Shown piece by piece: positions 6,922 through 27,423 of a DNA stretch of 64,000 bases (its first letter is position 1; each line of letters starts with the position of its first letter). The notes below the pieces were generated by a model that saw nothing but the letters and a program-made list of their open reading frames with translations, was not told where the DNA came from and did no database searches. The stretch covers positions 2,918,139 through 2,982,138 of the forward strand of contig NZ_CH672413.1 of the NCBI RefSeq assembly GCF_000152705.1. Reading direction: 5' to 3'. The position numbers and the translations under genes are program-made. The stretch comes from Janibacter sp. HTCC2649. GTDB taxonomy: Bacteria; Actinomycetota; Actinomycetes; Actinomycetales; Dermatophilaceae.

Positions 6922-6972
6922 CGACGGAACCCGCCGACACCGCTGTCGGTCCTCGGACGTCAGGAGCACCCC

Positions 6973-11505: not shown

Positions 11506-12686
11506 GCGACTCGACGGCCGGGGTCTGGGATGTCGCGATCGTCGGTGCGGGTCCGGCCGGCGCCGCCGCGGCACTCGCCGCACTCTCTGAGCGGCCGACA
11601 GCGAGGGTGCTGCTCCTCGACCGCGACGACTTCCCCCGGGACAAGAGCTGCGGGGACGGCATCGCACCGCACGTCCTGGACGTGCTCGAGCCGTTGGGCG
11701 CCGCCGACGTCGTCGACGGGTGGGAGCCACTCCAGGAGCTGGAGCTCTCCCGCGGGGTCAACGTGGTCCGGGGGCGGATGGCCCGGCCCGTCCACGTCAT
11801 TCCGCGTGAGGTCTTCGATGCCCGGCTCGTCGAGCGGGCTGTCGCCGCGGGCGCCTGCCTGGTGAGACATCGAGTTCGCAAGGTCCAGGTCGAGGGGGCG
11901 GTCGTCGTCCTCGATGGTGAGGTCAGGGCGCGCACGGTCATCGGCGCCGACGGAGCCCAGTCCGCGGTGCGTGCTGCGCTCTCCGCGCCGACCCGGGGTC
12001 GGGTGGCCCTGGCCATCCGCGGCTACGCCCCCACCCCGCCCGAACGCGCGGGCAGCCAGGTCATCCGCTATGGCCTGGGTCCTTCCCAGCCGTCCTACGC
12101 CTGGGCCTTCGACCGGGGCGACGGCCTGTCCAACGTCGGCTATGGCGAACTGGTCGGCGACGACCGGGCACTCACCCGGCAGCTGCTGCTGGACCGTCTC
12201 GAGGAGCTGCTGCCCGGCACCGTCGAGCACGGCACCCGTTGGCGCGCCCACCACCTGCCCCTGTCCGGTCGCGGGTGGAGGCGAGAGCAGCCCGACGGGC
12301 CCGTCCTCTTCGCGGGTGATGCCGCAGGCCTGATCAACCCCATGACGGGCGAGGGCATCTACTACGCGGTCGCCACCGGCGCGCTGGCCGGTGCCACTGC
12401 CGTGACCGCGACGTTCGGCAGTGGACGGGACAGCGCGGGCGCGCAGTACCGAGCCACGGTGCGCGCGCTCCTCAACCGTCACCTCCAGCACACCTGGGTC
12501 GCTGCCGGCCTGACCACGCGACCAGCCGTCGTCGACGCCGGCATCACGGGAGCCCGGCGGAACCATCGCACCTTCGACGACCTCGTCGAGCTCGGGCTGG
12601 GTGACGGCCGGCTCACCCCGCGCCTGGTCGCATCGCTCGCCACGTCCCTGGCACGCAACCAACTCATCCGAACCGGAGGTCGATGA
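11502..12686 (+). CDS. Geranylgeranyl-reductase-family FAD oxidoreductase
   Basis: The 394-residue flavoprotein has a Rossmann GxGxxG (VAIVGAGPAGAAAAL) near residue 14. It continues with RDDFPRDKSCGDGIAPHVLD, typical of geranylgeranyl reductases, and the FAD motif GPVLFAGDAAGLINPMTGEGI near residue 267. Members saturate prenyl chains of lipids and quinones. Next to UbiA and IPP isomerase it probably reduces the prenyl side chain, though an oxidation of the aromatic part cannot be excluded. An ATGA overlap links it to the UbiA gene, and one base separates its stop from the PKS start. Confidence 0.85.
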   Translation: MSDSTAGVWDVAIVGAGPAGAAAALAALSERPTARVLLLDRDDFPRDKSCGDGIAPHVLDVLEPLGAADVVDGWEPLQELELSRGVNVVRGRMARPVHVIPREVFDARLVERAVAAGACLVRHRVRKVQVEGAVVVLDGEVRARTVIGADGAQSAVRAALSAPTRGRVALAIRGYAPTPPERAGSQVIRYGLGPSQPSYAWAFDRGDGLSNVGYGELVGDDRALTRQLLLDRLEELLPGTVEHGTRWRAHHLPLSGRGWRREQPDGPVLFAGDAAGLINPMTGEGIYYAVATGALAGATAVTATFGSGRDSAGAQYRATVRALLNRHLQHTWVAAGLTTRPAVVDAGITGARRNHRTFDDLVELGLGDGRLTPRLVASLATSLARNQLIRTGGR

Positions 12687-12687
12687 C

Positions 12688-13758
12688 GTGGAGATCCTCG
12701 CGGTCAGGGGCGCACTGGCGCCACACCGCTACACCCAGGCCGAGATCACGGACACTTTCGCCGGCGTCATCGCCCGCGGCGGCGTCGACGAGAAGGTGCT
12801 GCGTCGGCTCCACGGCAATGCCGGGGTGGAGCACCGCAACCTCGTGATCCCCATCGAGGACTACGCCGGGCTGGAGGACTTCGGTCAGGCCAACGACCTC
12901 TTCATCGAGCACGCCACTGCCCTCGGCGCCCAGGCCCTCGAGGACACGCTCAAGGCCGCCAACCTGACCCCCAGTGACGTCGACGAGCTGATCTGCGCCA
13001 CGGTCACCGGCCTGGCGATCCCCTCGCTCGACGCCCGCATCGTCTCCGCGCTGGGTCTGCGCCCGGACGTGCGACGGGTGCCTCTGGTCGGGCTCGGCTG
13101 CGTCGCCGGCGCCGCCGGGGTGGCCCGCCTGCACGACTACCTCGGCGACCGGCCAGACCGGGTCGCGGCCCTCGTCACCGTCGAGCTCTGCTCCCTGACC
13201 GTGCAGCGCGACGACACCTCCGTGCCCAACCTCGTCGCGAGCGGGCTGTTCGGCGACGGGGCTGCCGCGGTGGTCGCCCGCGGCGGCACCGGACACGGTG
13301 GTCCCGTCGAGGTGCTCGACAGCCGCAGCCGGCTCTACCCCGACTCCGAACGGACCATGGGCTTCGACGTCAGCCACCGAGGACTGCGCATCGTGCTCGA
13401 CGCCCAGGTGCCGACGATCGTCCGGCGATACATCCGTGACGACGTCGACGCGTTCCTGGCCGACCACGGTCTCAGTCGTGCCGACATCGGCTGGTGGGTC
13501 TGCCACCCGGGTGGCCCCAAGGTCATCGACGCCGTCATCGACGCGCTGGAGCTCACCGAACACGACCTCGCGCTGACCCGCGCATCCCTGGCGCGCATCG
13601 GGAACCTCTCGTCGGCGTCGGTCCTGCACGTCCTCGAGGACACGCTGCGCGAGCGGCCCCCAGAACCCGGCACCCACGGTGTGATGCTGGCGATGGGTCC
13701 GGGCTTCTGCTCCGAGATCGTCCTGCTGCGGGCCACCGACCCGGACCCGCAACCGTGA
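12688..13758 (+). CDS. Type III polyketide synthase (alkylresorcinol/alkylpyrone-synthase-like)
   Basis: The 356-residue thiolase-fold enzyme keeps the full chalcone-synthase triad: C138 in GLGCVAGAAG, H273 in CHPGGPK, and N306 in GNLSSAS. The C-terminal GPGFCSEIVLL loop is present. Such enzymes extend an acyl-CoA starter with malonyl-CoA and cyclise the chain to resorcinols, pyrones or naphthols. The neighbouring ICMT-like methyltransferase and flavoprotein mirror the SrsA-SrsB-SrsC set of Streptomyces phenolic lipids. GTG 12688 has GGAGG eight bases upstream. Chain length and starter cannot be read from sequence by eye. Confidence 0.9.
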   Translation: MEILAVRGALAPHRYTQAEITDTFAGVIARGGVDEKVLRRLHGNAGVEHRNLVIPIEDYAGLEDFGQANDLFIEHATALGAQALEDTLKAANLTPSDVDELICATVTGLAIPSLDARIVSALGLRPDVRRVPLVGLGCVAGAAGVARLHDYLGDRPDRVAALVTVELCSLTVQRDDTSVPNLVASGLFGDGAAAVVARGGTGHGGPVEVLDSRSRLYPDSERTMGFDVSHRGLRIVLDAQVPTIVRRYIRDDVDAFLADHGLSRADIGWWVCHPGGPKVIDAVIDALELTEHDLALTRASLARIGNLSSASVLHVLEDTLRERPPEPGTHGVMLAMGPGFCSEIVLLRATDPDPQP

Positions 13759-14315
13759 TGGACGGCGCCGCGCTCACCGGTCTCACCGGCTTCGTCATCG
13801 TGGTCGCGCTGGTCGCCGTCGAGCGGCTGGCCGAGCTCGTGGTGTCCCAGCGCAACGCGTCCTGGAGCTTCGCCCGCGGCGGCATCGAGACCGGCCGGGA
13901 GCACTACCCGTTCATGGTCGTCCTCCACACCGGCTTCCTCGCCGCGATGCTGGTCGAGGCCTTCGTGCGCCGGCCCGAGGTCCCCGCTGCCCTGGCCTGG
14001 TCGATGCTCGCGCTCGTCGTCGCTTCCCAGGTGCTGCGCTGGTGGTGCATCACCGTCCTGGGGCAGCGGTGGAACACCCGGGTCATCGTCGTGCCGGGGC
14101 TCGCCCCTGTGCGTTCTGGCCCCTACCGCTTCCTCTCCCATCCCAACTACGTCGCCGTCGTGGTCGAGGGCGCCGCCCTGCCGCTCGTGCACGCGTCGTG
14201 GATCACGGCCGTCACGTTCACCGTCCTCAATGCCGCCCTGCTGAGGGAGCGGTTGCGCGTGGAGAACGCCGCACTGGCGGCGCTGCCGACGGCGAAGGTG
14301 CCGGACGATGCGTGA
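13758..14315 (+). CDS. ICMT/PEMT-like membrane methyltransferase
   Basis: This 185-residue membrane protein of the isoprenylcysteine carboxyl methyltransferase family has about four spans and the C-terminal SAM-binding block GPYRFLSHPNYVAVVVEG near residues 117-134, followed by RLRVENAAL. In SrsB-like systems a protein of this type O-methylates an alkylresorcinol, so a phenolic hydroxyl is the likeliest target here. The start codon overlaps the PKS stop (TGATG), and its own end overlaps the next gene by eight bases. Confidence 0.85.
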   Translation: MDGAALTGLTGFVIVVALVAVERLAELVVSQRNASWSFARGGIETGREHYPFMVVLHTGFLAAMLVEAFVRRPEVPAALAWSMLALVVASQVLRWWCITVLGQRWNTRVIVVPGLAPVRSGPYRFLSHPNYVAVVVEGAALPLVHASWITAVTFTVLNAALLRERLRVENAALAALPTAKVPDDA

Positions 14316-15330
14316 TCTCATCGTGGCCGGTGGCGGACCGGTCGGGCTGTCCACTGCCCTGTATGCCGTCCGTGCCGGTCTCGATGTCGGCGTGCGTGAG
14401 CCTCGGGTCGGTGTCGTCGACAAGGCCTGCGGAGAAGGACTCATGCCGGGTGCCGTCGCGGCCCTGCGCGACCTCGACGTGGACCTCGACGGACACCCGA
14501 TCACCGGCATCCGCTACGTCGACGGGACCCGGAGTGCCCAGGCACGGTTCCGGTACGGGCAGGGCCTCGGGGTCCGACGCACGGTCCTGCACGATGCCCT
14601 CACGCGCCGGGCCGAGGCCGTCGGCATCGTTCCCGAACAGCGCCCGGTGCGTGAGGTCCTCGAACGCGGCGACCACCTGCTCGTCGACGGCGAGCCGACC
14701 CGCTACCTCATCGCGGCTGACGGGCTGCACTCTCCGGTGCGGCGGCTGCTCGACCTCTCCGGCACGCCTTCGCGCCGCCGCCGCTACGGCCAGCGGGCCC
14801 ACGTCGAGATGGAGCCGTGGACGTCCTGCGTCGAGGTGCACTGGTCCTCCATCGGCGAGGCCTACGTCACCCCGGTCGCCGCTCGCGAGGTGGGCATCGC
14901 CGTCCTCACCACCGAACGGCGGTCCTGGGACGACCTGCTCACGCACTTCCCGCTGCTCGTGGGTCGGCTCGAGGGCAGGCCGCACTCGCGCCCGCTCGGC
15001 GCCGGTCCGCTCCGCCAGCGCAGCCGCCAGCGCGTGCGGGGACGCGTGCTCCTGGTCGGCGACGCGTCGGGCTATGTCGACGCGCTCACCGGCGAGGGCA
15101 TCGCCCTCGGGTTGGCGCAGGCAAAGGCCGCCGTCGAGGCCGTGGCCGGCAACCGACCCGCGGACTACGCCCGGGACTGGCGACGTCTCGGCTGGCGCCA
15201 CGACCTGCTCACGCACGGCCTCGTCTCCGCAACCAGCCTCTCGCCGGTCCGTCACCGCATCGTCCACGCCGCTGCGGTCCTGCCCGGTGTCTTCGATGCC
15301 GCGGTCAACCAGCTCGCGAGGCCGGCGTGA
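14308..15330 (+). CDS. FAD-dependent monooxygenase (SrsC-like)
   Basis: The 340-residue flavoprotein has GGGPVGLSTALYAVRAGLDV at residues 8-27, KACGEGLMPGAV, YLIAADGLHSPVR near residue 132, and VLLVGDASGYVDALTGEGI near residue 248. These mark a group A aromatic hydroxylase or dehydrogenase. By analogy with SrsC it may hydroxylate a methylated resorcinol to a hydroquinone. It is shorter than PHBH-type hydroxylases (about 390 residues). It lies within the coupled operon and shares GTGA with the idi start. Confidence 0.8.
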   Translation: MRDLIVAGGGPVGLSTALYAVRAGLDVGVREPRVGVVDKACGEGLMPGAVAALRDLDVDLDGHPITGIRYVDGTRSAQARFRYGQGLGVRRTVLHDALTRRAEAVGIVPEQRPVREVLERGDHLLVDGEPTRYLIAADGLHSPVRRLLDLSGTPSRRRRYGQRAHVEMEPWTSCVEVHWSSIGEAYVTPVAAREVGIAVLTTERRSWDDLLTHFPLLVGRLEGRPHSRPLGAGPLRQRSRQRVRGRVLLVGDASGYVDALTGEGIALGLAQAKAAVEAVAGNRPADYARDWRRLGWRHDLLTHGLVSATSLSPVRHRIVHAAAVLPGVFDAAVNQLARPA

Positions 15331-15887
15331 CCGCCGGGCGCGATGAGCTCGTGGTCCTGCTCGGCGACGACGGACGGCCGATCGGGACCGCCCCCAAGGC
15401 GACGGTGCACCACAGCGAGACGCCGCTGCACCTGGCCTTCTCGTGCTACGTGTTCGACCCCGCCGGTCGCTTCCTCCTCACCCGCCGGGCCCTGACCAAG
15501 AAGACGTGGCCGGGGGTGTGGACCAACAGCTGTTGTGGACATCCCGGCCCGGGCGAGCCGGTCGAGGAGGCCGTGCAGCGGCGGGTGAGGCAAGAACTCG
15601 GAACCGAGCTGACCGGCATACGCCTGGTTCTTCCCGACTTCCGCTACCGCGCCATCATGGACGACGGCACGGTCGAGAACGAACTCTGTCCGGTGTATGC
15701 CGCGACCTGTCCTGATCCCCGCGCGCTCGTCCTCGACCCGGCCGAGGTGGCCGAGGTGGAGTGGGTGGACTGGGCTGCCTTCCGCCGCGACGTCCTGGTC
15801 TCCGGCCGCGACGTGAGCCCGTGGTGCGGTCTGCAGGTGGCCGCCCTGGACGAGGATCCGCGCTCCACCGAGGACGGCGTGGCGTGA
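15327..15887 (+). CDS. idi: Isopentenyl-diphosphate delta-isomerase, type 1
   Basis: The 186-residue Nudix enzyme has the catalytic cysteine C70 in NSCCGHP, the acidic ENELCPVY segment near residue 117, and the Nudix-like box GEPVEEAVQRRVRQELG. It converts IPP to DMAPP. Its location as the last gene of the UbiA/PKS operon indicates that the pathway needs a prenyl diphosphate made on demand. The start is GTG 15327 inside the previous stop. It converges on the DUF1989 gene with a seven-base gap. Confidence 0.95.
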   Translation: MTAGRDELVVLLGDDGRPIGTAPKATVHHSETPLHLAFSCYVFDPAGRFLLTRRALTKKTWPGVWTNSCCGHPGPGEPVEEAVQRRVRQELGTELTGIRLVLPDFRYRAIMDDGTVENELCPVYAATCPDPRALVLDPAEVAEVEWVDWAAFRRDVLVSGRDVSPWCGLQVAALDEDPRSTEDGVA

Positions 15888-15894
15888 GCGCCGG

Positions 15895-16509
15895 TCAGCC
15901 CTTGCGCACCACGGAGTAGTCGATCGGCTTGCAGGTCCCACCGTTCGACTTCTCCGCCGAGCAGGCCGTGATGGCAACGTGCAGGTCCATCTCGGCCCGG
16001 ACCGAGAACCGGTCACCCGCGACACTCTGCGGTGCGTCGATGTGGAGCTCGCCCGACTCGTCGGCCCAGACGTTCATGAAGGTGTTGAAGGTCGTGCCGA
16101 TGCGGTCCGGGTCGACGCCGTGGGGAGCGAGCGCCTCGACGAGGTTCGCGAAGCAGCTCGGGTGCGGTGCCCCGCCGAAGTCGGGATAGAGGATGTCGAA
16201 CGTCTGCTGGCTGCACGGCGTCAGCAGGAAGTCGTGGCTGCGGCAGGTGTCCTCGACGATCGTCAGCATCGGCCGGCTGCGGTTGCTCCACAAGCGTCGT
16301 CCCGTCGTGAACCTCACCGTGTTCTCGAAGTCGATCGAGCGCCCCGACGACAACACCTCGGCGACGTCGTCGGTGCTGACACAGAAGAGATCGCTCACCT
16401 GCACGCCCGTCGGGTCCACGACCGTGAGGACGTCGCCGGGGGCGAGGTGCACGTAGGCACCGGTCTGTGGGGCGATCCGGGTCGTGTCCACGGTGGGTGC
16501 TGAGCTCAT
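15895..16509 (-). CDS. DUF1989 (urea carboxylase-associated) family protein
   Basis: The 204-residue protein has the DUF1989 core: GAYVHLAPGDVLTVVDPTGVQVSD, SIDFENTVRFT, CRSHDFLLTPCSQQTF and FMNVWADESGELHIDAP. Conserved cysteines and histidines suggest a metal site, and the reaction is unknown. Family members accompany urea carboxylase and guanidine or amine metabolism. ATG 16509 has AGGAG eight bases upstream and overlaps the stop of the upstream gntA-like gene (ATGA), so the two are translated together. Confidence 0.85.
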   Translation of the reverse strand: MSSAPTVDTTRIAPQTGAYVHLAPGDVLTVVDPTGVQVSDLFCVSTDDVAEVLSSGRSIDFENTVRFTTGRRLWSNRSRPMLTIVEDTCRSHDFLLTPCSQQTFDILYPDFGGAPHPSCFANLVEALAPHGVDPDRIGTTFNTFMNVWADESGELHIDAPQSVAGDRFSVRAEMDLHVAITACSAEKSNGGTCKPIDYSVVRKG

Positions 16510-17219
16510 GAGTTCTCCTGTCGGTGGCGAGCCAGCGGCGTCGCCGAGGCCTGCTCCAGAGGAGCCTGCCACTCCGCAGACACGGCCCGACCGGAGTACT
16601 GCCGTGCCTCCGAGATCACACCGTGGTCGGCAACCATGGGATTGACCGAACCCTGGAGGTGGAGGTCTCGTCCGCGGATGAGGTCACGCATCCGGTCGTA
16701 GCGTCCCGAGGCCTTCAGCTCCTCGAACTGCGAGTGGAGGTTGAAGACGAGCACGGGCCAGGGCGTCCGTCGGGCGTCGCGGGAGGCGTGCGGGTGCAGC
16801 CCGATGACGAAATAGGCGACGCCGCCGACGCTGAAGGAGAAGTCGACGTCCGCGGGATCGTCGGACACCTCCGAGTTCCACGGGGTGTCGTCGAAGTCGT
16901 GCAGGTGCTGCAGGGTGGTCCAGAGCCGGTCCTCGAAGGTGAACTCCGTGAGGGGCGGCTCACCCCCGAAGGCGGCGATGAGGGAGGTGAAGCCCTGGCT
17001 CGGATCCGCTTCCTCACCGAAGTCGCGCAAGGCCCGGTAGACGTCGAAACTGCTGCTCGCGCTGCCGAGACGCCCGGTCGTCACGACGTGCGCCCGTTCC
17101 CGGCTGAAGACGGCGCGGGCTCCGAGGCAGGGGTACTCGGGGTCGAGCACCCACGGCGCGAGCTGGGCCAGGACGTCGTCCTCGGTCGGGACGGTTGACG
17201 GGTTCTTCGTCTGCTTCAT
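16506..17219 (-). CDS. YqcI/YcgG family heme-dependent N-hydroxylase (GntA-like)
   Basis: The 237-residue protein shows the YqcI/YcgG blocks YPCLGARAVF, FTFEDRLWTTLQHLHDFD and YFVIGLHPHASRDARR near residue 145. The last carries a His expected to coordinate heme. Characterised homologues include GntA, which N-hydroxylates an arginine-derived guanidine in guanitoxin synthesis. The substrate here is unknown, and there are no other guanitoxin genes nearby. ATG 17219 follows AGGAGG. A 6-bp stem (GGCTGA/TCAGCC) sits just before that ribosome site and could regulate translation. Confidence 0.82.
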   Translation of the reverse strand: MKQTKNPSTVPTEDDVLAQLAPWVLDPEYPCLGARAVFSRERAHVVTTGRLGSASSSFDVYRALRDFGEEADPSQGFTSLIAAFGGEPPLTEFTFEDRLWTTLQHLHDFDDTPWNSEVSDDPADVDFSFSVGGVAYFVIGLHPHASRDARRTPWPVLVFNLHSQFEELKASGRYDRMRDLIRGRDLHLQGSVNPMVADHGVISEARQYSGRAVSAEWQAPLEQASATPLARHRQENS

Positions 17220-17221
17220 CA

Positions 17222-17317
17222 CAGGGGCCTCCTAGGCTGATTGGCCTTCAGCCTCTCCGGATCCCCTGGGTCCCCGGTACCCCCTTTGGGGTGAGCCGGT
17301 GGGGTGGCCCCCGAACC
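17222..17317 (-). promoter_or_regulatory. Structured leader upstream of the gntA-like gene
   Basis: Read on the minus strand, the leader contains ACCCC-AAA-GGGGT and then GGCTGA-AGGCCAA-TCAGCC ending one base before the AGGAGG ribosome site. It does not match the guanidine-I riboswitch consensus as far as I can tell. It may be an attenuator, or simply a GC-rich leader. Confidence 0.3.
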
Positions 17318-17329
17318 TACGGTCAAGTC

Positions 17330-17872
17330 ATGACCGCATACAGCACTGCCGTTCGAGCCCTCCACCTCGTGACCAACTCAGCCTGGTTCGGTGGCTCACT
17401 CATGGGGGCCGTGGGACTCAACCCCGCCTCCCACGAGGGCGACACCGCCAAGGAGCGCTCAGAAATCGCGGATGCAGGCTGGACGAAATGGGGTCCGGTC
17501 CAGGGAGCCGCCATCGGCGGGCACCTCCTCAGCGGCCTGGCGATCGTGGCTGACAACCGTCGACGAACTCTCACCCACCCGCCGACCACTGCCGCTGTGG
17601 TGCTCAAGACCACCCTGACGGGAGCCGCGCTCGCAGCCAGTGGAGCGGCATACCTGTATGGCGCGAAGCTCGGCGACGCGGCTGAGCAGGCCCAGCACGA
17701 TGTCGGCGCACGACGCCGGGCGCAGGAGCTGTCGCAGCGCATGAGGTGGTTGCAGTGGGCCACCCCCATGACCACCGGAGCCCTGCTGGTGCTCGACGCC
17801 TACCTCGGAGAACAGCAGCGCGGTGTCGCCGGGCTGCTCGACCGCCCGACGTCCCTGCTGCACCGCACGTGA
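17330..17872 (+). CDS. Conserved membrane protein of unknown function
   Basis: The 180-residue protein has hydrophobic spans near residues 8-30, 58-75, 87-105 and 138-155, separated by short charged loops, and WFGGSLMGAVGLNPAS near the start. I do not recognise the family. TACGGT, six bases, then ATG 17330 suggests a leaderless message. The stop overlaps the next start (GTGA), so it is expressed with the following small protein and possibly with the glycosyltransferase operon. Confidence 0.75.
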   Translation: MTAYSTAVRALHLVTNSAWFGGSLMGAVGLNPASHEGDTAKERSEIADAGWTKWGPVQGAAIGGHLLSGLAIVADNRRRTLTHPPTTAAVVLKTTLTGAALAASGAAYLYGAKLGDAAEQAQHDVGARRRAQELSQRMRWLQWATPMTTGALLVLDAYLGEQQRGVAGLLDRPTSLLHRT

Positions 17873-18249
17873 ACCGCCGATTCGAGTTCGCCTTCGCGCC
17901 GGCCTACCGGCTCCCGGCCCTCATCCTCGGCATCCGCCCGCGCACGGCCCACGTGACCGTCACCGCTGACGAGTTGCGGGTGCGCTTCGGGCCGTGGCGT
18001 CTCGTCACTCCTCTCACCAACATCGCCACCACCGAGATCACCGGCAACTTCGGTTGGCTCAAGACGGCCGGGCCACCGCACCTGTCCTTCGCCGACCGAG
18101 GTGTCACGTTCGCGACAAATGGGGAGCGGGCGCTCTGCGTGCGGTTCCTCGAGCCGGTCGCCGGTATCGATCCCACCCGCACCATCAAGCACCCGGGAGC
18201 AACCCTCACTGTCGCGGACCCGGAATCGCTCCAGCGCGCACTGGCCTGA
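17869..18249 (+). CDS. Conserved actinobacterial hypothetical protein
   Basis: This 126-residue soluble protein is rich in beta-strand-like segments: FEFAFAPAYRLPALILGI, TVTADELRVRFGPWRLVTPL, and TNIATTEITGNFGWLKTAGPP. It has a PH-like or jelly-roll feel but no recognised catalytic motif. It is translationally coupled to the upstream membrane protein, and 30 bases separate it from the acyl-CoA dehydrogenase-like gene. Similar unnamed proteins are common in actinomycetes. Confidence 0.72.
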   Translation: MNRRFEFAFAPAYRLPALILGIRPRTAHVTVTADELRVRFGPWRLVTPLTNIATTEITGNFGWLKTAGPPHLSFADRGVTFATNGERALCVRFLEPVAGIDPTRTIKHPGATLTVADPESLQRALA

Positions 18250-18279: not shown

Positions 18280-19368
18280 ATGAGCGACACCCACGTCGGC
18301 ACGCATTCGGCCGAGCCCCAGACAGGTCGCTCCTCCGGACCCAGCTTCCTGCGATGGGCCGACCACGACCTCGTGGACGTGGCCCGCTCTGCCGGCCCGG
18401 ACATCGACGCGGCCGTCACCCTTGCCCGCACCCTCGGCCCCACGAGCGAGACCCTCGGACGGTCCACGTGGACCTACCTGCAGACCTTGGGTTCCCTCGG
18501 AGCCGGAGATCTCACGGTTGCGCGGGTCCTGGAACCGCACCTGGACGCGCTCGCGATCCTCGACCAGGCAGCCCACCGAGATCGTGGAGTCGATGGCAGC
18601 TGGCCCAGCGCCACTGCGCCACGAGGGAGCACGTGGGGCGTGTATGCCGCCCACGCTCCCGGAGCGCATCTCGACGCCCATGCCGTCGGTGGCGAGTGGA
18701 TGCTGTCCGGGGTCAAACCATGGTGTTCCCTCGCCGGCCGACTCACACACGCCCTCATCACCGCGCACATCGACCGGTCGCGCCGGCAGCTCTTCGCCGT
18801 GGACCTGGCGCACCCGGGAGTGCGAGTCAGCGACGACCCCTGGGTGTCGCGTGGCCTGGCCGCCGTGCGCAGCACAGCCCTCGAGCTCGACGCCGTCCCT
18901 GCCACACCCGTGGGTCCGCCCGGGTGGTACCTCGAGCGCCCCGGCTTCTCCTGGGGCGGCGTGGGAGTGGCCGCCGTCTGGTTCGGCGGCGCCTGTGCGC
19001 TGGCTCAGAGCGTCCTCGAGGCCGCGCGTCGTCGCGATCCGGACCAGCTCGCCCTGCTCCACGTCGGTCGCCTCGATCTGGCCCTGCAGGGCGCGGAGCT
19101 CGCCCTGCGTGCGGCCGCGGACCTCATCGACTCGGGTGAGGCGACCGGTGCCGTCGGTGAGCTGGTGGCTGCTCGCACCCGAGCCACCGTTGCCGGGGCG
19201 ACCGAACTCGCCCTCGCGCAGACGGCGCGCGCCCTGGGACCGGGGCCGCTGACCAGCGACGAGGAGCACGCGCGACGTGTCGCCGACCTGACCGTCTACG
19301 TCCGGCAGCATCACGGCGAACGTGACGTGGCCCGGCTCGGATCCCTGCTGGTGGGGCGAACGCCATGA
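18280..19368 (+). CDS. Acyl-CoA dehydrogenase-like protein of the PIG-L/NodS operon
   Basis: The 362-residue protein has the acyl-CoA dehydrogenase architecture: an all-alpha N-terminal part, a middle beta domain with LDAHAVGGEWMLSGVKPWCSLAG near residue 132, and a C-terminal helical bundle with GGACALAQSVLEAARRR. It is somewhat shorter than typical family members (about 380-400), and I cannot place the catalytic glutamate with confidence. It may therefore act on a thioester or carrier-bound substrate, or on a non-acyl substrate. GAAGGA lies before ATG 18280. An ATGA overlap with the PIG-L gene marks it as part of that pathway. Confidence 0.75.
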   Translation: MSDTHVGTHSAEPQTGRSSGPSFLRWADHDLVDVARSAGPDIDAAVTLARTLGPTSETLGRSTWTYLQTLGSLGAGDLTVARVLEPHLDALAILDQAAHRDRGVDGSWPSATAPRGSTWGVYAAHAPGAHLDAHAVGGEWMLSGVKPWCSLAGRLTHALITAHIDRSRRQLFAVDLAHPGVRVSDDPWVSRGLAAVRSTALELDAVPATPVGPPGWYLERPGFSWGGVGVAAVWFGGACALAQSVLEAARRRDPDQLALLHVGRLDLALQGAELALRAAADLIDSGEATGAVGELVAARTRATVAGATELALAQTARALGPGPLTSDEEHARRVADLTVYVRQHHGERDVARLGSLLVGRTP

Positions 19369-20783
19369 GTCCCAGAGCTGGCACCATCCATCACCCCGAG
19401 GGCGAGCCGCGGTGGGTGCGCGACGAGCGCTGGTCCGCCCTCGCGCGCCCGACCACGGCAGCCCTGCTCGCGGACTACGACCACTTGCTCGTCGTGGCGG
19501 CTCACCCGGACGACGAGTGCCTGGGCGCAGGAGCCTTCATCGCTGATGCTGCCTCCCTCGGCGTCGACGTCACCGTCCTGCTCCTCACCGACGGGGAGGG
19601 CTCGCACCCGCGGTCGCCCACGGTTCGGCCCGCACAGATGGCAGAGCTGCGCCGCGTCGAGGCAGACCGTGCGGCGGCAGTCCTCGCGCCGGTCGCGCGC
19701 ATCGTGCATGCCGGCCTCGCCGACGGCGGGTTGTCGACCTCCCACAGCGACGTGGTCGTCGCGATCCAGGACCTCACCCGTCCGGGGACCCTCGTCATCG
19801 CGCCATGGACCGCTGACGGTCACCCCGACCATGAGGTTGCTGGTCGGGCCGCGGCGGAGGCGGTCGCCTCGACACCGCACGGTCACGACGGCCCGGTCGG
19901 CCTGGCCCACTACTTCGTCTGGCTCTGGCACTGGGGTGACCCGGATGACCTTCCGTGGGCGACCTCTGTCGTGGTGGATGCCACTCTCGAGGGCCTGTCC
20001 AGGAGCGAGCAGGCGCTGGGTGAGCACCGCAGCCAACGACTGCCTCTCTCCTCCGCCCCGGGGGACGAGCAGCTGCTCACCGCACCGGTGCTCGCGCCGT
20101 TCCGCCGGGGGTTCACGACTCTGACGCTCGCTGGCGCGGGCGGACGCGTCGACCCAGCGGCGGCCCGCGAGGCCGAGACGGATTCTCCGGTCGCCGACCA
20201 GGGCGGGACCGTGGGGGAGACCTTCGACGCGATGTTCGCCGACGGGGATGACCCATGGTCCAGCGAGAGCTGGTACGAACGGCGCAAGCGCGACGTCACC
20301 CTGGCCGCGCTGGGCCGCGAGCGCTACGACCGAGTGCTCGACATCGGCTGCTCGACGGGTGCGCTCACCACCGCACTCGCCGGCCGTTCCGGCGCGGTTG
20401 TGGCGGTGGACGCGAGCGCTCGCGCGCTGGACATCGCCCGATGTGGTCGGACCCACGGCATCTCCTGGGTCCAGGGTGTGGCACCCCACGTGCTCCGGGA
20501 CATCGAGGGCACGTTCGACCTCGTCGTGCTCTCGGAGATCGCCTACTTCCTCACGCCGTTCGACCTGTGGCTGACCCTTGGGGCGGTCCTGGCCCGACTC
20601 TCGCCGGGTGGCGAGCTTCTGTTGGTGCACTGGCGCCACCCGACGAAGCACATCCCCTCCGACGGACCGACGGCTCACGCGCAGGTCCGGGCGGTCTGCG
20701 AGCGATGGGCGGCCGCGGCCCTTGTCGAGCCCGACCTTCTGCTCGACGTCTACGTGGTCGACTCCAACACGGTGACGACGTGA
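19365..20783 (+). CDS. Bifunctional PIG-L deacetylase / NodS-like SAM methyltransferase
   Basis: A fusion of 472 residues. The N-terminal PIG-L/LmbE domain carries the zinc motif AHPDDE at residues 46-51 and GHPDHE at 152-157, the signature of GlcNAc N-deacetylases such as MshB and PIG-L. From about residue 288 a class I methyltransferase begins: WYERRKRDVTLAAL, then VLDIGCSTGALTTAL, then LSEIAYFLTPFD near 389 and HWRHPTKH. These resemble NodS, the N-methyltransferase of Nod-factor synthesis. The simplest reading is that the protein deacetylates an N-acetylated sugar and then methylates the product, in the cytoplasm. It is coupled to both neighbours by overlapping codons. Confidence 0.88.
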   Translation: MSPRAGTIHHPEGEPRWVRDERWSALARPTTAALLADYDHLLVVAAHPDDECLGAGAFIADAASLGVDVTVLLLTDGEGSHPRSPTVRPAQMAELRRVEADRAAAVLAPVARIVHAGLADGGLSTSHSDVVVAIQDLTRPGTLVIAPWTADGHPDHEVAGRAAAEAVASTPHGHDGPVGLAHYFVWLWHWGDPDDLPWATSVVVDATLEGLSRSEQALGEHRSQRLPLSSAPGDEQLLTAPVLAPFRRGFTTLTLAGAGGRVDPAAAREAETDSPVADQGGTVGETFDAMFADGDDPWSSESWYERRKRDVTLAALGRERYDRVLDIGCSTGALTTALAGRSGAVVAVDASARALDIARCGRTHGISWVQGVAPHVLRDIEGTFDLVVLSEIAYFLTPFDLWLTLGAVLARLSPGGELLLVHWRHPTKHIPSDGPTAHAQVRAVCERWAAAALVEPDLLLDVYVVDSNTVTT

Positions 20784-21478
20784 TGGGCGCCGTGCACGTC
20801 GTCATCCCCGCTCGCGACGAGGAGCTGCTCCTCCCGCGCTGCCTCGAGAGTGTCGAACAGGCCCGTCGCGCGTTGCGAGCGGCCCGACCTGATCTGCTCG
20901 TCGACGTCACGGTCGTTCTCGACAGGTGTCGTGATCGCACGGCCCTGGTCGTGGATGCAGCCCGGGTGCATCGCCACACGGTCGACTTCGGGATGGTCGG
21001 TGCCACGCGGGACGCCGGAGTCCGCTGGGCGCTGGCATCGAGTGCCCGCAACGGGATCGCCCCCGAAGACCTCTGGATCGCCTGCACCGATGCTGACACG
21101 GTGGTGCCGCCACACTGGCTCACTCGCCAGCTGGAGCTGGCGCAGGACCACGACGCCGTCATCGGCACGGTGGAACCGTTCGGCCTCACGGACACGGCCG
21201 TGCTGGCGCGGTGGCGTGCGCGTCATCACCTCGTCGAGGGTCACCCGCACGTGCATGGGGCAAACCTGGGAGTGCGCGGCAGCACCTATCTCGAGGTTGG
21301 CGGATTCCTGCCCGTGGCACTGGACGAGGACGTCGACCTGGTGCGGCGGATCCGCTCCCACACGAGCCGGTGGGTCGCGACGGACGCTGTACGCGTGGCG
21401 TCCTCCGCGCGACGGGTCAGCCGGTGCCGCGGTGGTTTCGCGGATGCCATCCTCGCCCTCGAGGACGAGGTGGGCTGA
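20783..21478 (+). CDS. Glycosyltransferase family 2 protein
   Basis: The 231-residue GT-A enzyme opens VHVVIPARDEELLLPRCLESV, carries the metal-binding TDADTVVPPHWL near residue 104, HGANLGVRGSTY near residue 156, and the acceptor-side motif LDEDVDLVRRI. It has no membrane span, so it probably works on a soluble or loosely bound acceptor. ATG 20783 lies inside the PIG-L stop, and the next gene follows with no gap. Confidence 0.85.
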   Translation: MGAVHVVIPARDEELLLPRCLESVEQARRALRAARPDLLVDVTVVLDRCRDRTALVVDAARVHRHTVDFGMVGATRDAGVRWALASSARNGIAPEDLWIACTDADTVVPPHWLTRQLELAQDHDAVIGTVEPFGLTDTAVLARWRARHHLVEGHPHVHGANLGVRGSTYLEVGGFLPVALDEDVDLVRRIRSHTSRWVATDAVRVASSARRVSRCRGGFADAILALEDEVG

Positions 21479-22564
21479 GTGCGGATCGCCATGTTCGCGA
21501 CCTCCCGACAACCGATCGTGGAGCCGTATGCCGGTGGGCAGGAGGCGCACACCGCGTCCCTCGTGCGCGGGTTGCGTGGGCTCGGGCACCACGTCCTTCT
21601 GTATGCCACCGAGGGGACCGACTCGTCGCTGGCAGACGAGCTCGTCCCCTATCCGCAGCTGCCGGCGCTCAGTGCGGTCGCCGCGCTCGATCACCAGCTC
21701 CCCGAGCCCGAGTTCCTCCACGACCACGCGGCGATGACGAGCGCGGTCGTCGACCTCCTGGCTCGATCCGACGTCGACATCGTGCACAACCAGAGCCTGC
21801 ACTTCCTGCCGTTGGCCTTCAGCGCAGTGCTCCCCGCACCCTTGGTCACGACCCTGCACACGCCACCCTTCCCGTGGATGGAACTGGGGGTCGCGCTCGC
21901 AGGCGAGCACACGGCATACGCCTGCGTGTCGCGAGCGAACGCTCGGGACTGGACCACGCTCCCGTCGCCGCCACGGGTCATCCTCAACGGTGTCCGGGAC
22001 GACGGTGTCGGCCCCGGCGTGGGCGGTCCCGACCTCGTGTGGATGGGACGACTCACCCCGGAGAAGGGCGCCGACCTCGCGATCCGGGTCGCTCGGCGCG
22101 TCGGTCGCTCGTTGCGTCTGGCCGGTCCCATCAGCGACCGCCCCTGGTTCGAGGACGTCATCGCACCAGAGCTCGACGACACCATCGAGTACGCCGGTCA
22201 CCTGTCGCACGCGGATCTCGCTGCGCTGGTGCGGACCAGCGCTGTCGCTCTGGTCACGCCCCGTTGGGAGGAGCCCTTCGGCCTGGTCGCTGCCGAAGCT
22301 GCCATGTGGGGGACGCCGGTCGTCGCGCTGGCCCGGGGCGGCTTGGGCGAGGTGGTCTCTCCTGACATCGGGGTTCTCGTGGACGCCCGAGGTGACGAGG
22401 AGCAGCAGGTCGCCGGCCTTGCCGACGCCCTGGACGCCGCGTCCGCCCTGCGGCGCGTGGACGTTCGCCGGTGTGCACGTCGCGACCTCGGCGTCGAGCG
22501 CATGGTCGCGGACTACGTCGATCTGTATCGCAACTGTGTTCTCACAAGGGAGGAACGGCCATGA
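21479..22564 (+). CDS. Glycosyltransferase family 4 protein
   Basis: The 361-residue GT-B enzyme begins RIAMFATSRQPIVEPYAGGQE. In the C-terminal half it has WMGRLTPEKGADLAIRVA near residue 189 and EEPFGLVAAEAAMWGTPVVA near residue 263, containing the E-x7-E nucleotide-sugar motif. Retaining transfer from a UDP- or GDP-sugar is expected. The GTG start directly abuts the previous stop, and the end overlaps the next gene (ATGA). Confidence 0.88.
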   Translation: MRIAMFATSRQPIVEPYAGGQEAHTASLVRGLRGLGHHVLLYATEGTDSSLADELVPYPQLPALSAVAALDHQLPEPEFLHDHAAMTSAVVDLLARSDVDIVHNQSLHFLPLAFSAVLPAPLVTTLHTPPFPWMELGVALAGEHTAYACVSRANARDWTTLPSPPRVILNGVRDDGVGPGVGGPDLVWMGRLTPEKGADLAIRVARRVGRSLRLAGPISDRPWFEDVIAPELDDTIEYAGHLSHADLAALVRTSAVALVTPRWEEPFGLVAAEAAMWGTPVVALARGGLGEVVSPDIGVLVDARGDEEQQVAGLADALDAASALRRVDVRRCARRDLGVERMVADYVDLYRNCVLTREERP

Positions 22565-23619
22565 AGGTGGGTTGGTACGTGCATCACCACGGAGCCGGTC
22601 ACCGCACCCGGGCGGCTGTCGTCGGTGCCGAGCTCGTGAACCGTGGCGCCGATGTCACTCTCCTCGGCTCCGACCTCGACCGACAAGGAGCGCACGACAG
22701 ATCCCTGCACACCGTCCTCCTCGCCATGGACGCGCCGCTGGCAGAAGGAGCCACCGAGTCCGACTGCGACGTCACCGTGCGCGGGACCATGCACTGGGCG
22801 CCCCTGTGGCACAACGGCTTTCAGGAGCGCATGACGACGATCGCGCGGTGGATCCAGGTGGAGGAGCCAGATGTCTTCGTCGTTGACGTGTCGTGCGAGG
22901 TCGCGGTCCTGGTGCGTCTCCTGGGCGTCCCCGTGGTGATCGTGGCGCAGCCCGGCGACCGCCGCGACGGTGCGCACTCGGCCGCCCTGGATGCCGCATC
23001 GGCAGTGCTCGCTCCGTGGCCCTCCTGGGCAACGGACCAGCTCTGGCGGCGACCCGAGACGGCGAGTGCGGATCCAAGGATCCACTCCGTGGTGGCCGTC
23101 GGTGGGATCAGTGGTCGCGCGGACCACGGCCCTGCGCCCGACGGCGATCTCTCCTCCCCGGCATCGGGCCGGGAGCGCCCACGCGGCCTCATGCTCACCG
23201 GGTCCGAGGGATTCGATGACCCGGACCTTCCCGCGGTCATCGCCCGAGCGGTCCCCGAAGTCGACTGGACCGTTGCGGGAGCCGGCGTCTGGGTCCCTGA
23301 CGTCCACAAGGAACTGGCCGACTCGGCGATCGTGGTGACCCACGCCGGTCAGAACGCGATCGCCGACGTCGCAGGTTCGCGGACCCCCGCAGTGGTGGTT
23401 CCCCAGAGGCGCCCCTTCGACGAGCAGGCGCACATGGGGAACCTGCTCGGCAGCTCCGGTATGGCTCACGTCGTCGGGGCGGACGACCTCGAGGGCGCCG
23501 ACTGGCGAGAGCTCGTGCACCAGGCACGCGCCGCTGGGGGACAGGGCTGGGAGAAGTGGGGCTGCCACGGCGCCTCGGCACGAGCAGCGTCACTCATCGA
23601 GGTGGTGGCCGGTGGCTGA
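22561..23619 (+). CDS. GT-B glycosyltransferase (MurG/UGT-like)
   Basis: The 352-residue protein starts KVGWYVHHHGAGHRTRA, the glycine/histidine-rich loop of MurG-like enzymes. It has THAGQNAIADVAGSRTPAVVVPQ near residue 261, corresponding to the UDP-sugar-binding half. The central segment FVVDVSCEVAVLVRLLGVPVVIV separates the two Rossmann domains. A strong AGGAGG precedes ATG 22561. Donor and acceptor are unknown. Confidence 0.8.
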   Translation: MKVGWYVHHHGAGHRTRAAVVGAELVNRGADVTLLGSDLDRQGAHDRSLHTVLLAMDAPLAEGATESDCDVTVRGTMHWAPLWHNGFQERMTTIARWIQVEEPDVFVVDVSCEVAVLVRLLGVPVVIVAQPGDRRDGAHSAALDAASAVLAPWPSWATDQLWRRPETASADPRIHSVVAVGGISGRADHGPAPDGDLSSPASGRERPRGLMLTGSEGFDDPDLPAVIARAVPEVDWTVAGAGVWVPDVHKELADSAIVVTHAGQNAIADVAGSRTPAVVVPQRRPFDEQAHMGNLLGSSGMAHVVGADDLEGADWRELVHQARAAGGQGWEKWGCHGASARAASLIEVVAGG

Positions 23620-24478
23620 CTCGACCACCGTGGTGACGATCGTTCATCGACGCCACGACCACCTGCGCCAACAGCGCCGTGGCCTCCGGACGTTCTCACC
23701 CGAGACGTCGCACATCGTGGTCGCGATGGACGACCCCGAGATCGACGACGTGGTTGGTGGCGAGGACGGCACGACCGTGCTCCATGTCGAGGCCGACCCG
23801 CTCGGTCTCCCGCTGTCGCGGGCTCGCAACGTCGGGGTCGAGGCGGCCCTCGCCCGCGGCGCCGAGCTCGTCATCCTGCTCGATGTCGACTGTGTGCCGG
23901 GGCCCCGACTCGTCGCTGGCTACGAGAAGGCATCGTCCTGGGCCCCGGGCACGCTCCTTGCGGGACCCGTCACCTATCTCGGTGAGGGTGTCGACGTCCC
24001 ACTGGACCTGGCGCTGCTCGACCGTCTCCGAGCTCCCCACGAGGTGCGGCCGGACCCTCCCGTCGGGGCGATCGAACGAGGCGGCAACCACGATCTCTTC
24101 TGGTCACTGAGCTGTGCGATGACCCCGTCGACGTGGCGTCTGGTCGGCGGTTTCAGCGAGGAGTACGTCGGCTACGGCGCCGAGGACACCGACTACGGCT
24201 GGTCAGCACGCTCGCGCGGCGTCGACCTCGTGTGGGTGGGTGGTGCCGACGCCTTCCACCAGTTCCACCCCGTCTCGCGCCCGCCCATTGAGCACCTGAC
24301 CGACATCGTGCGCAACGCGACGACCTTCCACCGACGATGGGGGCTCTGGCCCATGCGGGGATGGCTCGAGGAGTTCGCTCGTCAGGACCTCGTGAGGTTC
24401 GACGCGGACTCGCTCGTCCTCCTGCGACCTCCCGTCAACGCCAGGGTTCCAGGACCCTTGCGGCGAGACGTACTGTGA
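23612..24478 (+). CDS. Glycosyltransferase family 2, galactosyltransferase-like
   Basis: The 288-residue GT-A protein has LPLSRARNVGVEAAL near residue 67, the metal motif LLDVDCVPGPRLV near residue 89, and WRLVGGFSEEYVGYGAEDTDYGWSAR near residue 171. That last block recalls the C-terminal substrate-binding block of galactosyltransferase-related enzymes (FxGxxxEDxD). It starts at GTG 23612, eight bases inside the previous gene. It completes a set of four glycosyltransferases. Confidence 0.85.
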   Translation: MADSTTVVTIVHRRHDHLRQQRRGLRTFSPETSHIVVAMDDPEIDDVVGGEDGTTVLHVEADPLGLPLSRARNVGVEAALARGAELVILLDVDCVPGPRLVAGYEKASSWAPGTLLAGPVTYLGEGVDVPLDLALLDRLRAPHEVRPDPPVGAIERGGNHDLFWSLSCAMTPSTWRLVGGFSEEYVGYGAEDTDYGWSARSRGVDLVWVGGADAFHQFHPVSRPPIEHLTDIVRNATTFHRRWGLWPMRGWLEEFARQDLVRFDADSLVLLRPPVNARVPGPLRRDVL

Positions 24479-24483
24479 ACGCC

Positions 24484-25212
24484 ATGAGCGCAGCTCCACG
24501 TCTGACCGCAGTACCGTCCGGCCAGCCCCTCACCCTCGCCGTGGTCAACGACCACGAGCTCATCGTGCGTGGAGTGGCCGCCATGCTCGAGCCGTTCAAG
24601 GACGTCATCCAGGTGGTCGAGCTCGACCTCGACGTGCCGGTGACCCGACCGGTCGACATCGCGCTCTATGACACCTTCACCCGCGCGAACCTCGGTTCGG
24701 ACGACCTGGACGACCTGTGCGAGAACCCGGGCATCGGCCGGGTCGTCCTCTATGCCTGGCAGCTCAACGAGGACCTCGTCGCGTCGGCCCTGCGCCGGGG
24801 CGTCCACGGCGCGCTGCCCAAGTCTCTCGATGGCGAAGCCCTCGTTGCGGCCCTCCTCGCGGTCCACGAGCAGGCGATCGAGGTCATCCCGTTCGTCGAC
24901 GACCCGGACCTGGCAAGCAACTCGTGGCCGGGGCGCGAGTTCGGTCTGACACCTCGGGAGTCCGAGATCATCGCCCTCGTGACCGCTGGTCTCAGCAACT
25001 TGGAGATCGCCGAACGCACCTACCTCAGCATCAACTCGGTGAAGTCCTACATCCGTTCGGCCTACCGCACGATGGACGTGACGAGCCGGAGCAAGGCCGT
25101 CCTCTGGGGCATCGACCACGGGATGGCCACGTCGAGGATGCGGGTGCTCATGCCCAGCGCCCAGGCCGAGGGGCACCGGACTCCGCTGGCCCAGGTCCGA
25201 GAGACCCCGTAA
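24484..25212 (+). CDS. LuxR/NarL-type response regulator
   Basis: The 242-residue protein has an N-terminal receiver-like domain with VVNDHELIVRGVAAML, a candidate phospho-Asp in DIALYDTF and the conserved lysine in GALPKSLDG. The C-terminal LuxR helix-turn-helix is LTPRESEIIALVTAGLSNLEIAERTYLSINSVKSYIRSA in shape, residues about 157-195. One position of the acidic pair is Asn (N-D-H), so phosphorylation may be weak. It begins five bases after the last glycosyltransferase and no kinase is adjacent, so it is probably the operon's own regulator. Confidence 0.85.
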   Translation: MSAAPRLTAVPSGQPLTLAVVNDHELIVRGVAAMLEPFKDVIQVVELDLDVPVTRPVDIALYDTFTRANLGSDDLDDLCENPGIGRVVLYAWQLNEDLVASALRRGVHGALPKSLDGEALVAALLAVHEQAIEVIPFVDDPDLASNSWPGREFGLTPRESEIIALVTAGLSNLEIAERTYLSINSVKSYIRSAYRTMDVTSRSKAVLWGIDHGMATSRMRVLMPSAQAEGHRTPLAQVRETP

Positions 25213-25305: not shown

Positions 25306-27423
25306 TCAGGCGGTGAGGTCTCGTTCCCAGTGACGTGGACCGGCAATCCGAGCGACGTATGCCGTGGTGTCCTTCGCGGTGTCGACTGCCAGACAGGCGT
25401 CGTCGAGCTTGCCGGTCAGGCCCGCGGCCGCGACGAGCGCGTCCGTGCCGGAGCCCAGGCCGATGACCTTGAAGTGGGCGAAGGCGTCGGTGAGGAAGTC
25501 CCGGGCGGGCGGCTCGTCGGCCAGGGCCTGCTCGCCCTCGACGCCCGCGAGGACCGCGACGGTGTCATAGAGCACGGAGGGTGCACCGGCGACCGCCTGC
25601 TTCGCCGCGAGCAGTGATCCGTCGGAGAGGGTGGCCCCGCCGACCTTGACCGCGATGACCTCGACCGTGCCACCGGCCTTCTCCACGGCTTTGGTGAGTC
25701 GCTTGACCGCGGTTGCCTTGGCGCCGTCGCCGACGAGGAGCCCGAGCTTGCGGCCCTGGAACGTCTCCTTCGCGTTGCCCAACAGGCTCAGTGCAGGCGA
25801 TGGCTCCGTCTGCACGACCGGCGCGGCGGGCTTGGAAGCCGCGGGAAGCGGCATACCCAGCTTGTCGGCAATCCCCGACGCGAGCGCCTCGTCGACATTG
25901 CGCAGGTTGGCAACCATCCGCTCGCGGATCGCGGGTACCTCGCACTTGCCGAGCTCGAACGCGTAGGACGCGACGATGTGGTCCTGCTCGACCGGTGTCT
26001 GGCTGATCCAGAACTGGCGGGCCTGGCTGTAGTGGTCGGCGAAGGACGCGGCTCGGATGCGGCGGGTCTCGCCCGAGACCTCGGCGGCGAACGGCACCTG
26101 TCCCTCCGGGCCGGCTTCACGCGGACCGCGATCCGCTCCGGTGAACGAGTTCGGCTCGTAGGCCGCGCGCCCGGCCTGTGGAGACGTCTGCATGTGGCCG
26201 TCGCGCTGGAAGTGCGCCACCGGGCACTTCGGTGCGTTGACCGGGAGCTGGCTGAAGTTCGTGCTGCCGAGCCGCTTGAGCTGGGTGTCGAGGTAGGAGA
26301 AGTTGCGGCCCTGGAGCAGGGGGTCGTTGCTGAAGTCGATGCCCGGCGGGACGTTCTGGGTCATGAACGCGACCTGCTCGATCTCGGCAAAAACGTTGTC
26401 CACCAACCGGTTCAGCGTCATCTTGCCGATCGGGCGGACGGGGATGAGCTCCTCGGGGATGAGCTTGGTCGCGTCGAGGACATCGAACTCGAACGAGTCG
26501 GCAAACGCGTCGTCGAAGACCTGGACGCCGAGCTCCCACGCGGGGAGGTCACCGGCCGAGATGGCGTCGAAGAGATCACGCCGGTGGAAGTCGGGGTCGG
26601 CGCCGTTGATCTTCACGGCTTCGTTCCAGACGACCGACTGCATGCCGAGCACCGGCTTCCAGTGGAACTTCACGAACGAGCTCACCCCGGCCGCGTTGAT
26701 GAAGCGGAAGGTGTGGACACCGAAGCCCTCCATCATCCGCAGTGACCGGGGGATCGCGCGATCCGACATCTGCCACAGCGTCATGTGGGTGGACTCGGGC
26801 ATGAGGGAGGCGAAGTCCCAGAAGGTGTCGTGGGCCGACTGGGCCTGCGGGAAGCCGCGATCCGGCTCCTCCTTGACGGAGTGGACGAGGTCGGGGAACT
26901 TCACCGCGTCCTGGATGAAGAAGACGGGCATGTTGTTGCCGACGAGGTCCCAGTTGCCCTCGTCCGTGTAGAACTTCGTCGCGAACCCACGGACATCACG
27001 GGCCAGGTCGGGTGAGCCCAGGTTGCCGGCCACGGTGGAGAAGCGGACGAAGGTCTCGGTCTTCTTGCCCTTGGTGGCGAAGATGCTCGCCCGGGTGATG
27101 TCGGCGAGGGACTCGTAGGCCTCGAAGACGCCGTGCGCGCCGTAGCCGCGGGCGTGGACCACGCGCTCCGGAATGCGCTCGTGGTCGAAGTGGAAGATCT
27201 TCTCGCGGAAGGCATGGTCGGCCATGAGGGTGGGGCCGCGATCGCCCGCGCGCAGCGAGTTGTTGTCGTCCTCGACGGGGGCGCCCTGTGCGGTCGTCAT
27301 CGGCGGGCTGTCACCGCCCGCGCGCTGGTGCAGCTCGCCGCCGTTGCCGATCTCGTCGCGGGGGCTGGCCGAGGTGGCGGTCTTCTTGGTCTTGGCTCGG
27401 GCAGCGGGCTTCTTGGTCGCCAT
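25306..27423 (-). CDS. katE: Large-subunit catalase (clade 2, HPII type)
   Basis: The 705-residue heme catalase has the catalytic His90 in VVHARG, the distal Asn in [11 protein letters not shown], and the proximal heme Tyr near residue 376 in [10 protein letters not shown]. The C-terminal flavodoxin/DJ-1-like domain ([20 protein letters not shown] onward), found only in the large-subunit clade, is complete. The N-terminus is a Lys/Ala-rich tail ([14 protein letters not shown]) that may bind nucleic acid or extend the tetramer. It disproportionates hydrogen peroxide in the cytoplasm. An inverted repeat of CACCACCT lies upstream. Confidence 0.95.

Follow-up and report, generated by a model that had tools for sequence, protein, structure and literature searches.

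A cluster of seven genes in Janibacter sp. HTCC2649, carried on a 64,000-nucleotide stretch of contig NZ_CH672413.1 hereafter called the window, is a real, widespread and apparently undescribed pathway of known enzyme families, whose most likely product is a modified amino-sugar glycoside of small size that plays a role in stress. Comparative genomics resolved the cluster into two units. The core comprises an acyl-CoA-dehydrogenase-fold flavoprotein (ACAD), a PIG-L de-N-acetylase, a NodS-like S-adenosylmethionine (SAM) methyltransferase and a family 2 glycosyltransferase (GT2a), and the second unit is a block of three further glycosyltransferases (GT4, a MurG-like enzyme and GT2b). The deacetylase and the methyltransferase are fused, so that the six proteins other than the regulator at the end of the cluster provide seven catalytic domains.

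The seven frames are contiguous on the forward strand from 18280 to 25212, and every junction is overlapping or abutting, except that 5 bases may separate the regulator from GT2b. Starting from the ACAD gene, the overlaps measure 4, 1, 0 (abutting), 4 and 8 bases, while GT2b and the regulator either overlap by 1 base or are 5 bases apart. Aligned in pieces, the frames showed 52-85% identity to same-genus regions and about 26-47% to plasmid regions from other phyla. The seven frames are genuine coding genes and it is not in doubt that the operon is real; the preliminary description of this DNA had reported a seven-gene operon with overlapping codons, and both its frames and its families were borne out. 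Its proposal of a conserved and undescribed sugar pathway is likewise supported by the comparative genomics and by the literature searched, which mostly did not cover subscription papers and in which no description of the pathway was found. To our knowledge, no product has been assigned to it.

Distribution of the two units

The fusion protein was matched (E up to 1e-20) in 27 of 58 genomes, its own included, and in 5 of the 8 other genomes of the genus; as only part of the same-genus genomes carry a match, the protein is accessory. Among 29 regions from relatives, the core was complete in 21 and all seven domains occurred together in 11, while the block was present as a whole within 10 kb in 12 and wholly absent from 17. 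Four loci holding the methyltransferase only (L072, L074-L076) and three on cut contigs (L051, L060 and L073) are kept in these denominators and count among the misses. The block occurs on both sides of the core, and its orientation varies as well.

More distant relatives were collected by scanning named genome contigs with an alignment of four methyltransferase sequences, and the best 80 of at least 509 loci were retained. Within 4 kb of the methyltransferase gene, ACAD was found in 75 of these 80, GT2a in 68, PIG-L in 59 and all three in 54. All seven domains occurred together in nine of the 80, all from Pedobacter or Mucilaginibacter, and two others showed GT4 alone, in one case on a contig that was cut and in the other through weak matches. 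A complete core was recovered from six phyla (Actinomycetota, Bacteroidota, Pseudomonadota, Thermomicrobiota, Cyanobacteriota and Vulcanimicrobiota) and a partial one from Acidobacteriota, without PIG-L, and from Deinococcus, with no GT2a in the region. Clusters of all seven catalytic domains, differing in gene order, were found in Actinomycetota, in Bacteroidota (Pedobacter) and on a Novosphingobium plasmid (L045), which carries in a row the genes for catalase, GT4, GT2a, the MurG-like enzyme, ACAD, PIG-L, methyltransferase and GT2b. Plasmid regions with core genes came from Pandoraea, Acinetobacter, Bradyrhizobium, Kitasatospora, Deinococcus, Rubrobacter, Nostoc and Novosphingobium; the annotated set consisted of eight regions chosen from 86 records matching the fusion protein, plus one Acinetobacter baumannii region (L047).

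A tree of 104 ACAD sequences (bootstrap not fully settled), limited to rows that reached both 200 bits and 75% coverage of the model, grouped the proteins mostly by phylum. ACAD relatives occurred in seven named phyla, and the Pandoraea and Acinetobacter rows were nested in an otherwise actinobacterial clade, suggesting an old family with some transfer.

Core enzymes and proposed chemistry

The deacetylase and NodS-like methyltransferase described earlier as a fusion do share one open frame, with a PIG-L match at 4.2e-25 (89.2 bits against a cut-off of 28.2) and, in the methyltransferase half, matches to Methyltransf_25 (8.4e-12) and Pfam NodS (1.1e-9; 38.9 against a cut-off of 24). The two domains were joined in this way in 45 of the 92 loci having both, the window counted, in Actinomycetota and Bacteroidota. 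In the PIG-L metal-binding motif (HPDDE / HxDH), the residues H, D, D, H and H were invariant among the 91 sequences and the third D was kept in all but one (90 of 91), and the glycines of the SAM motif were kept in all 118 methyltransferase sequences. Judged from these alignments, both motifs appear intact and the protein belongs to both families.

In eight Rubrobacter/Solirubrobacter-type loci without a PIG-L match, we found a CE4 polysaccharide-deacetylase-like frame, assigned by Pfam in one locus and by the existing annotation in another, and in these two it lies directly 5' of ACAD. No strong PIG-L match was detected in three CE4-bearing genomes searched whole, and no replacement deacetylase was seen for L093, L128 and L141. 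The presence of two unrelated deacetylase folds in one slot suggests that deacetylation is required chemistry, and this apparent swap, together with conservation over great distances with reshuffled gene order, argues that the product is probably useful.

The ACAD protein matched the Pfam middle domain only, at 31.2 bits against a cut-off of 33.3, and is thus a divergent member of its family. Its profile, from which L150 was left out owing to undetermined residues in its row, matched best among PDB sequences the monooxygenase DszC (3.8e-28) and then acyl-CoA dehydrogenases (3.4e-24), with weaker matches to DnmZ and nitrososynthase, amino-sugar oxygenases of the same fold; such profile searches, also run for GT2a, the MurG-like enzyme and GT2b, indicate fold and not reaction. 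The YEGT motif and its spacing served to place the catalytic glutamate of acyl-CoA dehydrogenases proper. By an ungapped count from the RD anchor on that basis, the expected C-terminal position holds P, H, S, Y or A in 35 of 35 rows, and an acidic residue occurs three positions further on in 31 of 35. Rubrobacter-type clusters contain an extra pyridine-nucleotide-dependent FAD reductase-like frame (Pfam on L086; annotated in L044), which fits the need of a two-component oxygenase. The enzyme may thus carry out an oxygenation or a dehydrogenation. Among the block enzymes, the MurG-like protein gave a weak Pfam match to the GT28 C-terminal domain (22.9 bits, cut-off 22) and GT2b a single, sub-threshold match to GT7C (21.3, cut-off 23).

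In Deinococcus wulumuqiensis (L043, 2427-4799), the frame annotated as acyl-CoA dehydrogenase extends to about 790 residues, its N-terminal part being glycoside-hydrolase-like by eye, and a TnpB gene is situated between this frame and PIG-L.

We hold with roughly even confidence that the operon encodes one soluble two-module pathway making a small protective glycoside under stress. GT2a, or another of the four glycosyltransferases, would attach an N-acetylated amino sugar to a small acceptor, PIG-L would deacetylate this sugar, and the NodS-like domain fused to PIG-L would methylate the freed position, most likely the sugar nitrogen. The ACAD-fold flavoprotein would then oxidise or oxygenate the product, and GT4, the MurG-like enzyme and GT2b would add as many as three further sugars, as an extension or as a cap. 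The glycoside would be made under desiccation, oxidative or stationary-phase stress alongside KatE catalase and trehalose. The acceptor, the sugars, the order of the steps, the N-methylation, the ACAD chemistry and the protective role are those we infer.

The scheme resembles Nod factor tailoring in pairing de-N-acetylation by NodB with a methyltransferase of the NodS family; NodB is a CE4-type deacetylase, the type which takes the PIG-L slot in Rubrobacter-type clusters. However, the window protein scored 41.3 with the NodS equivalog model against a cut-off of 300, and no NodA or NodC family member occurs among the seven proteins, which include ACAD and up to four glycosyltransferases instead. 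Membership of Nod factor biosynthesis was rejected on these grounds. In mycothiol and bacillithiol synthesis, a glycosyltransferase (MshA, BshA) acts before a PIG-L deacetylase (MshB, BshB). The mycothiol parallel drawn earlier stands for this pairing and fails on the scores, which were far under the curated cut-offs for MshB (25.9 against 224.35), MshA (39.7 against 462.5), BshB1 (60.5 against 182.5) and BshA (32.8 against 273.7), leading us to reject membership of either pathway; moreover, the window PIG-L has a fused methyltransferase and the genome holds seven other PIG-L loci. DszC-type enzymes and the amino-sugar N-oxygenases of the same fold are a further comparison for ACAD, although acyl-CoA dehydrogenases score nearly equally. 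The A. baumannii genes ACICU_02432-02435 present a glycosyltransferase, a SAM methyltransferase, LmbE and an ACAD in the order of L047, but that 24-kb region has no three-glycosyltransferase block and its PIG-L and methyltransferase are separate frames.

Two other assignments were rejected. Flippases, polymerases and priming transferases were absent from the Pfam matches of the seven proteins, which agrees with the earlier remark that capsule-type machinery is lacking; a capsule or exopolysaccharide locus was rejected on this basis. Anti-phage defence was discarded as PADLOC models matched the methyltransferase half only (mad2, 5e-16), the other six proteins giving none at 1e-5.

One pathway or two, and the link to stress

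The relation between core and block was evaluated in 236 genomes of the window's class, at thresholds of 1e-30 and 1e-40. The methyltransferase family was present in 41 genomes and GT2b in 29, the MurG-like enzyme occurring in the same 29 and lying adjacent to GT2b in all of them (coordinates judged by eye). Methyltransferase and GT2b were found together in 18 genomes against 5.0 expected (hypergeometric probability 5e-9) and, by genus, in 14 of 100 against 4.5 expected (8e-8), one of the 14 through different genomes; these p values are too small owing to the relatedness of the genomes. With the window's family excluded, 13 genomes were common to sets of 36 and 24. The preliminary description had assumed one indivisible gene set and named scattering among relatives as the observation that would speak against it; we found instead two separable units, often apart in the genome, which nevertheless co-occur above chance.

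The best argument for a single pathway comes from Methylobacterium, where the enzymes of core and block are re-partitioned. In three of four genomes, GT4, GT2a, the MurG-like enzyme, PIG-L and GT2b share one locus and ACAD and methyltransferase another, and in the fourth, PIG-L lies with GT2b and a second methyltransferase away from the core locus. All four genomes, lacking PIG-L at the core locus, thus carry it elsewhere.

The link to stress, which the preliminary description had not noticed, was examined through the catalase gene, in 25 of the 27 genomes matching the fusion protein (all but G014 and G021, whose matches were partial). Core and catalase were no more than 10 kb apart in 11 of the 25 genomes and 6 of 19 genera, and five genomes had no catalase match at all; assuming a chance of 0.8% per genome, the probability of this proximity is 3e-17 for genomes and 7e-9 for genera. 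All 11 core-linked catalases are open frames of at least 705 codons, and some equally large catalases in other genomes do not lie near the core. Catalase was also found beside a separate GT2b/MurG-like locus in Marisediminicola (L176, 5728) and on a Salinimonas plasmid (L082). Genes for LigD, Ku, otsAB, CsbD or treYZ occur close by in some of the chosen plasmid regions, a tally made with no control set.

Expression data were available for A. baumannii. Region L047 has the four core genes in a row by profile matches and was equated with ACICU_02432-02435 through gene order and product names rather than sequence. Table 2 of PMC5660220 lists this operon of glycosyltransferase, SAM methyltransferase, LmbE and ACAD as down 31-62 fold in two mutants that depend on colistin; also down in these mutants are catalase ACICU_01426 (22-31 fold), otsA (27-50 fold) and otsB (12-35 fold). 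The four-gene set is named in that expression table and in the gene map of PMC6240043, without a function in either, and is not named in the passages considered from PMC7660261, PMC12029717, PMC7784981, PMC4694148 and PMC5445863. In Mycobacterium smegmatis, the excerpts of PMC4694148 and PMC5445863 report the group 2 glycosyltransferase MSMEG_1097 as about 5 units lower in a sigF mutant and among the changed genes of a spray-drying study.

Several results weigh against a single stress-related pathway. Where both units occur in a class genome, they lie within 10 kb of each other in only 4 of 18 cases (by eye). Thirty-five named core genomes without a local block were searched for GT2b, both positive controls being detected, and the protein was elsewhere in 14 and absent from 21. 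The block occurs without core genes in regions of about 14-19 kb from Rhodococcus, Arthrobacter, Salinimonas, Sulfitobacter, Paracoccus, Pontibrevibacter and Sphingomonas plasmids, although Sulfitobacter and Paracoccus are also among the plasmid records that match the fusion protein. These three results would be expected if the cluster held two neighbouring but independent pathways, with one small modified amino-sugar compound made by the core and another glycoside by the block, clustered as stress genes on the same islands. We consider this explanation possible but somewhat doubtful, as the units co-occur in genomes above chance though mostly unlinked and their enzymes are intermixed in Methylobacterium and Pedobacter. 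The block itself mostly occurs as a whole but is not constant: GT2b was found without MurG-like enzyme or GT4 in regions L169, L170 and L178 of Lewinellaceae and L165 of Methylobacterium, and in 40 plasmid records against 31 for the MurG-like enzyme. As for the core, PIG-L was not near the methyltransferase in 21 of the best 80 named loci; in 11 of these searched genome-wide, a strong PIG-L lay elsewhere in five, only weak matches were found in four and none in two. On the stress side, catalase was within 10 kb in only 4 of the best 80 loci, two of them by weak matches, and the Acinetobacter comparison, as presented in PMC5660220, opposes colistin-dependent mutants (lpxC disruption being reported in one) to their parents, a broad response. 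EcfG-like promoters numbered 10 against 8.5 expected in 17 alphaproteobacterial loci (one block-only), none just 5' of the core, and SigB/F-like promoters, for which site density predicts roughly 3-4 loci, were seen in 5 of 41 actinobacterial loci, none near the window cluster; both nulls are evidence against a simple sigma-factor story.

The nature and destination of the product were also considered. A glycolipid or short oligosaccharide that is secreted or placed on the surface, moved by general exporters rather than retained as a cytosolic protectant, is unlikely in our judgement: genes for MFS transporters lie near the core in L041 and L042, and MFS-type and ABC-ATPase-type frame families (each called by Pfam on one member) appear in 5 and 19 of 125 loci, but these are general families of inconstant occurrence, and the seven proteins include no lipid carrier, flippase or priming transferase. 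Quite improbable is a specialised-metabolite cluster making an antibiotic-like glycoside, with a coincidental catalase link. The antibiotic-pathway oxygenases DnmZ and nitrososynthase in the ACAD search and a type III polyketide synthase gene about 4.5 kb upstream would agree with it, yet the core has no scaffold enzyme and the ACAD relatives span seven named phyla with mostly phylum-wise grouping. A stronger version of the soluble two-module pathway has, in our estimate, a low probability. In it, all seven domains would make a stress protectant of a new class, namely an N-methylated and perhaps N-oxygenated amino-sugar oligosaccharide produced with KatE and trehalose for survival of drying or peroxide. 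If true, trehalose or mycothiol would have a counterpart that has gone unrecognised, and a further widespread small-molecule defence would stand beside trehalose and low-molecular-weight thiols.

On four plasmids (L078-L081, from Sulfitobacter, Paracoccus, Pontibrevibacter and Sphingomonas), a protein of about 660-710 residues, annotated as HAD hydrolase and also matching the GT4 profile weakly, precedes the MurG-like/GT2b pair; on the Paracoccus plasmid, treZ, treY and glgX come after these genes. This arrangement possibly represents a second pathway. An annotated gene for a BLUF blue-light sensor near the Bradyrhizobium core (L041) points to possible light control, and the gene map of PMC6240043 places blsA (BLUF) near the A. 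baumannii core genes.

Gene coordinates and neighbouring regions

The positions of the cluster genes and their immediate neighbours are reported in Table 1.

Table 1. Genes of the cluster and adjacent genes in the window.
Feature	Position	Strand	Basis
ACAD (acyl-CoA-dehydrogenase-fold flavoprotein, core enzyme 1)	18280..19368	+	Pfam and profile searches
PIG-L de-N-acetylase/NodS-like SAM methyltransferase fusion (core enzymes 2 and 3)	19365..20783	+	Pfam, equivalog models, motif alignment
GT2a glycosyltransferase (core enzyme 4)	20783..21478	+	Pfam and profile searches
GT4 glycosyltransferase (three-glycosyltransferase block)	21479..22564	+	Pfam and profile searches
MurG/UGT-like GT-B glycosyltransferase (three-glycosyltransferase block)	22561..23619	+	Pfam and profile searches
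GT2b, GT7C/chondroitin-synthase-like glycosyltransferase (three-glycosyltransferase block)	23612..24478	+	Pfam and profile searches
LuxR/NarL-type regulator, likely cluster regulator	24484 (ATG) or 24478 (GTG)..25212	+	Pfam
KatE-type long catalase, convergent downstream neighbour	25306..27423	-	Catalase, Catalase-rel and Catalase_C domains; 705 residues
Small protein, 126 codons, just 5' of ACAD	17869..18249	+	Same-genus matches; no Pfam match

Frames resembling the LuxR regulator were present in 15 of the 125 loci, the window counted. Frame families 0, 1 and 3 of the clustering of these loci were set aside by judgement as apparent shadow frames of core genes in high-GC DNA. Among all collected loci, the small protein matched only its own or same-genus sequences. 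It lies 5' of ACAD in L048, L049 and L050, has no match in L052, and in L051 (2726-3100) is located between GT2a and GT4; this position inside the operon suggests that it is a member of the pathway.

Further upstream, the window carries in a row, at 10962-15887, a FAD-binding-3 protein, a type III polyketide synthase-like protein, an ICMT-type methyltransferase, a second FAD-binding-3 protein and a NUDIX frame, which we take to be a possible alkylresorcinol or prenylated polyketide cluster. Finally, the regions 6660-10599 and 15895-17222 contain LamB/YcsF and carboxyltransferase A/B domains, presumably of the 5-oxoprolinase type, and further on DUF1989 and YqcI/YcgG genes.

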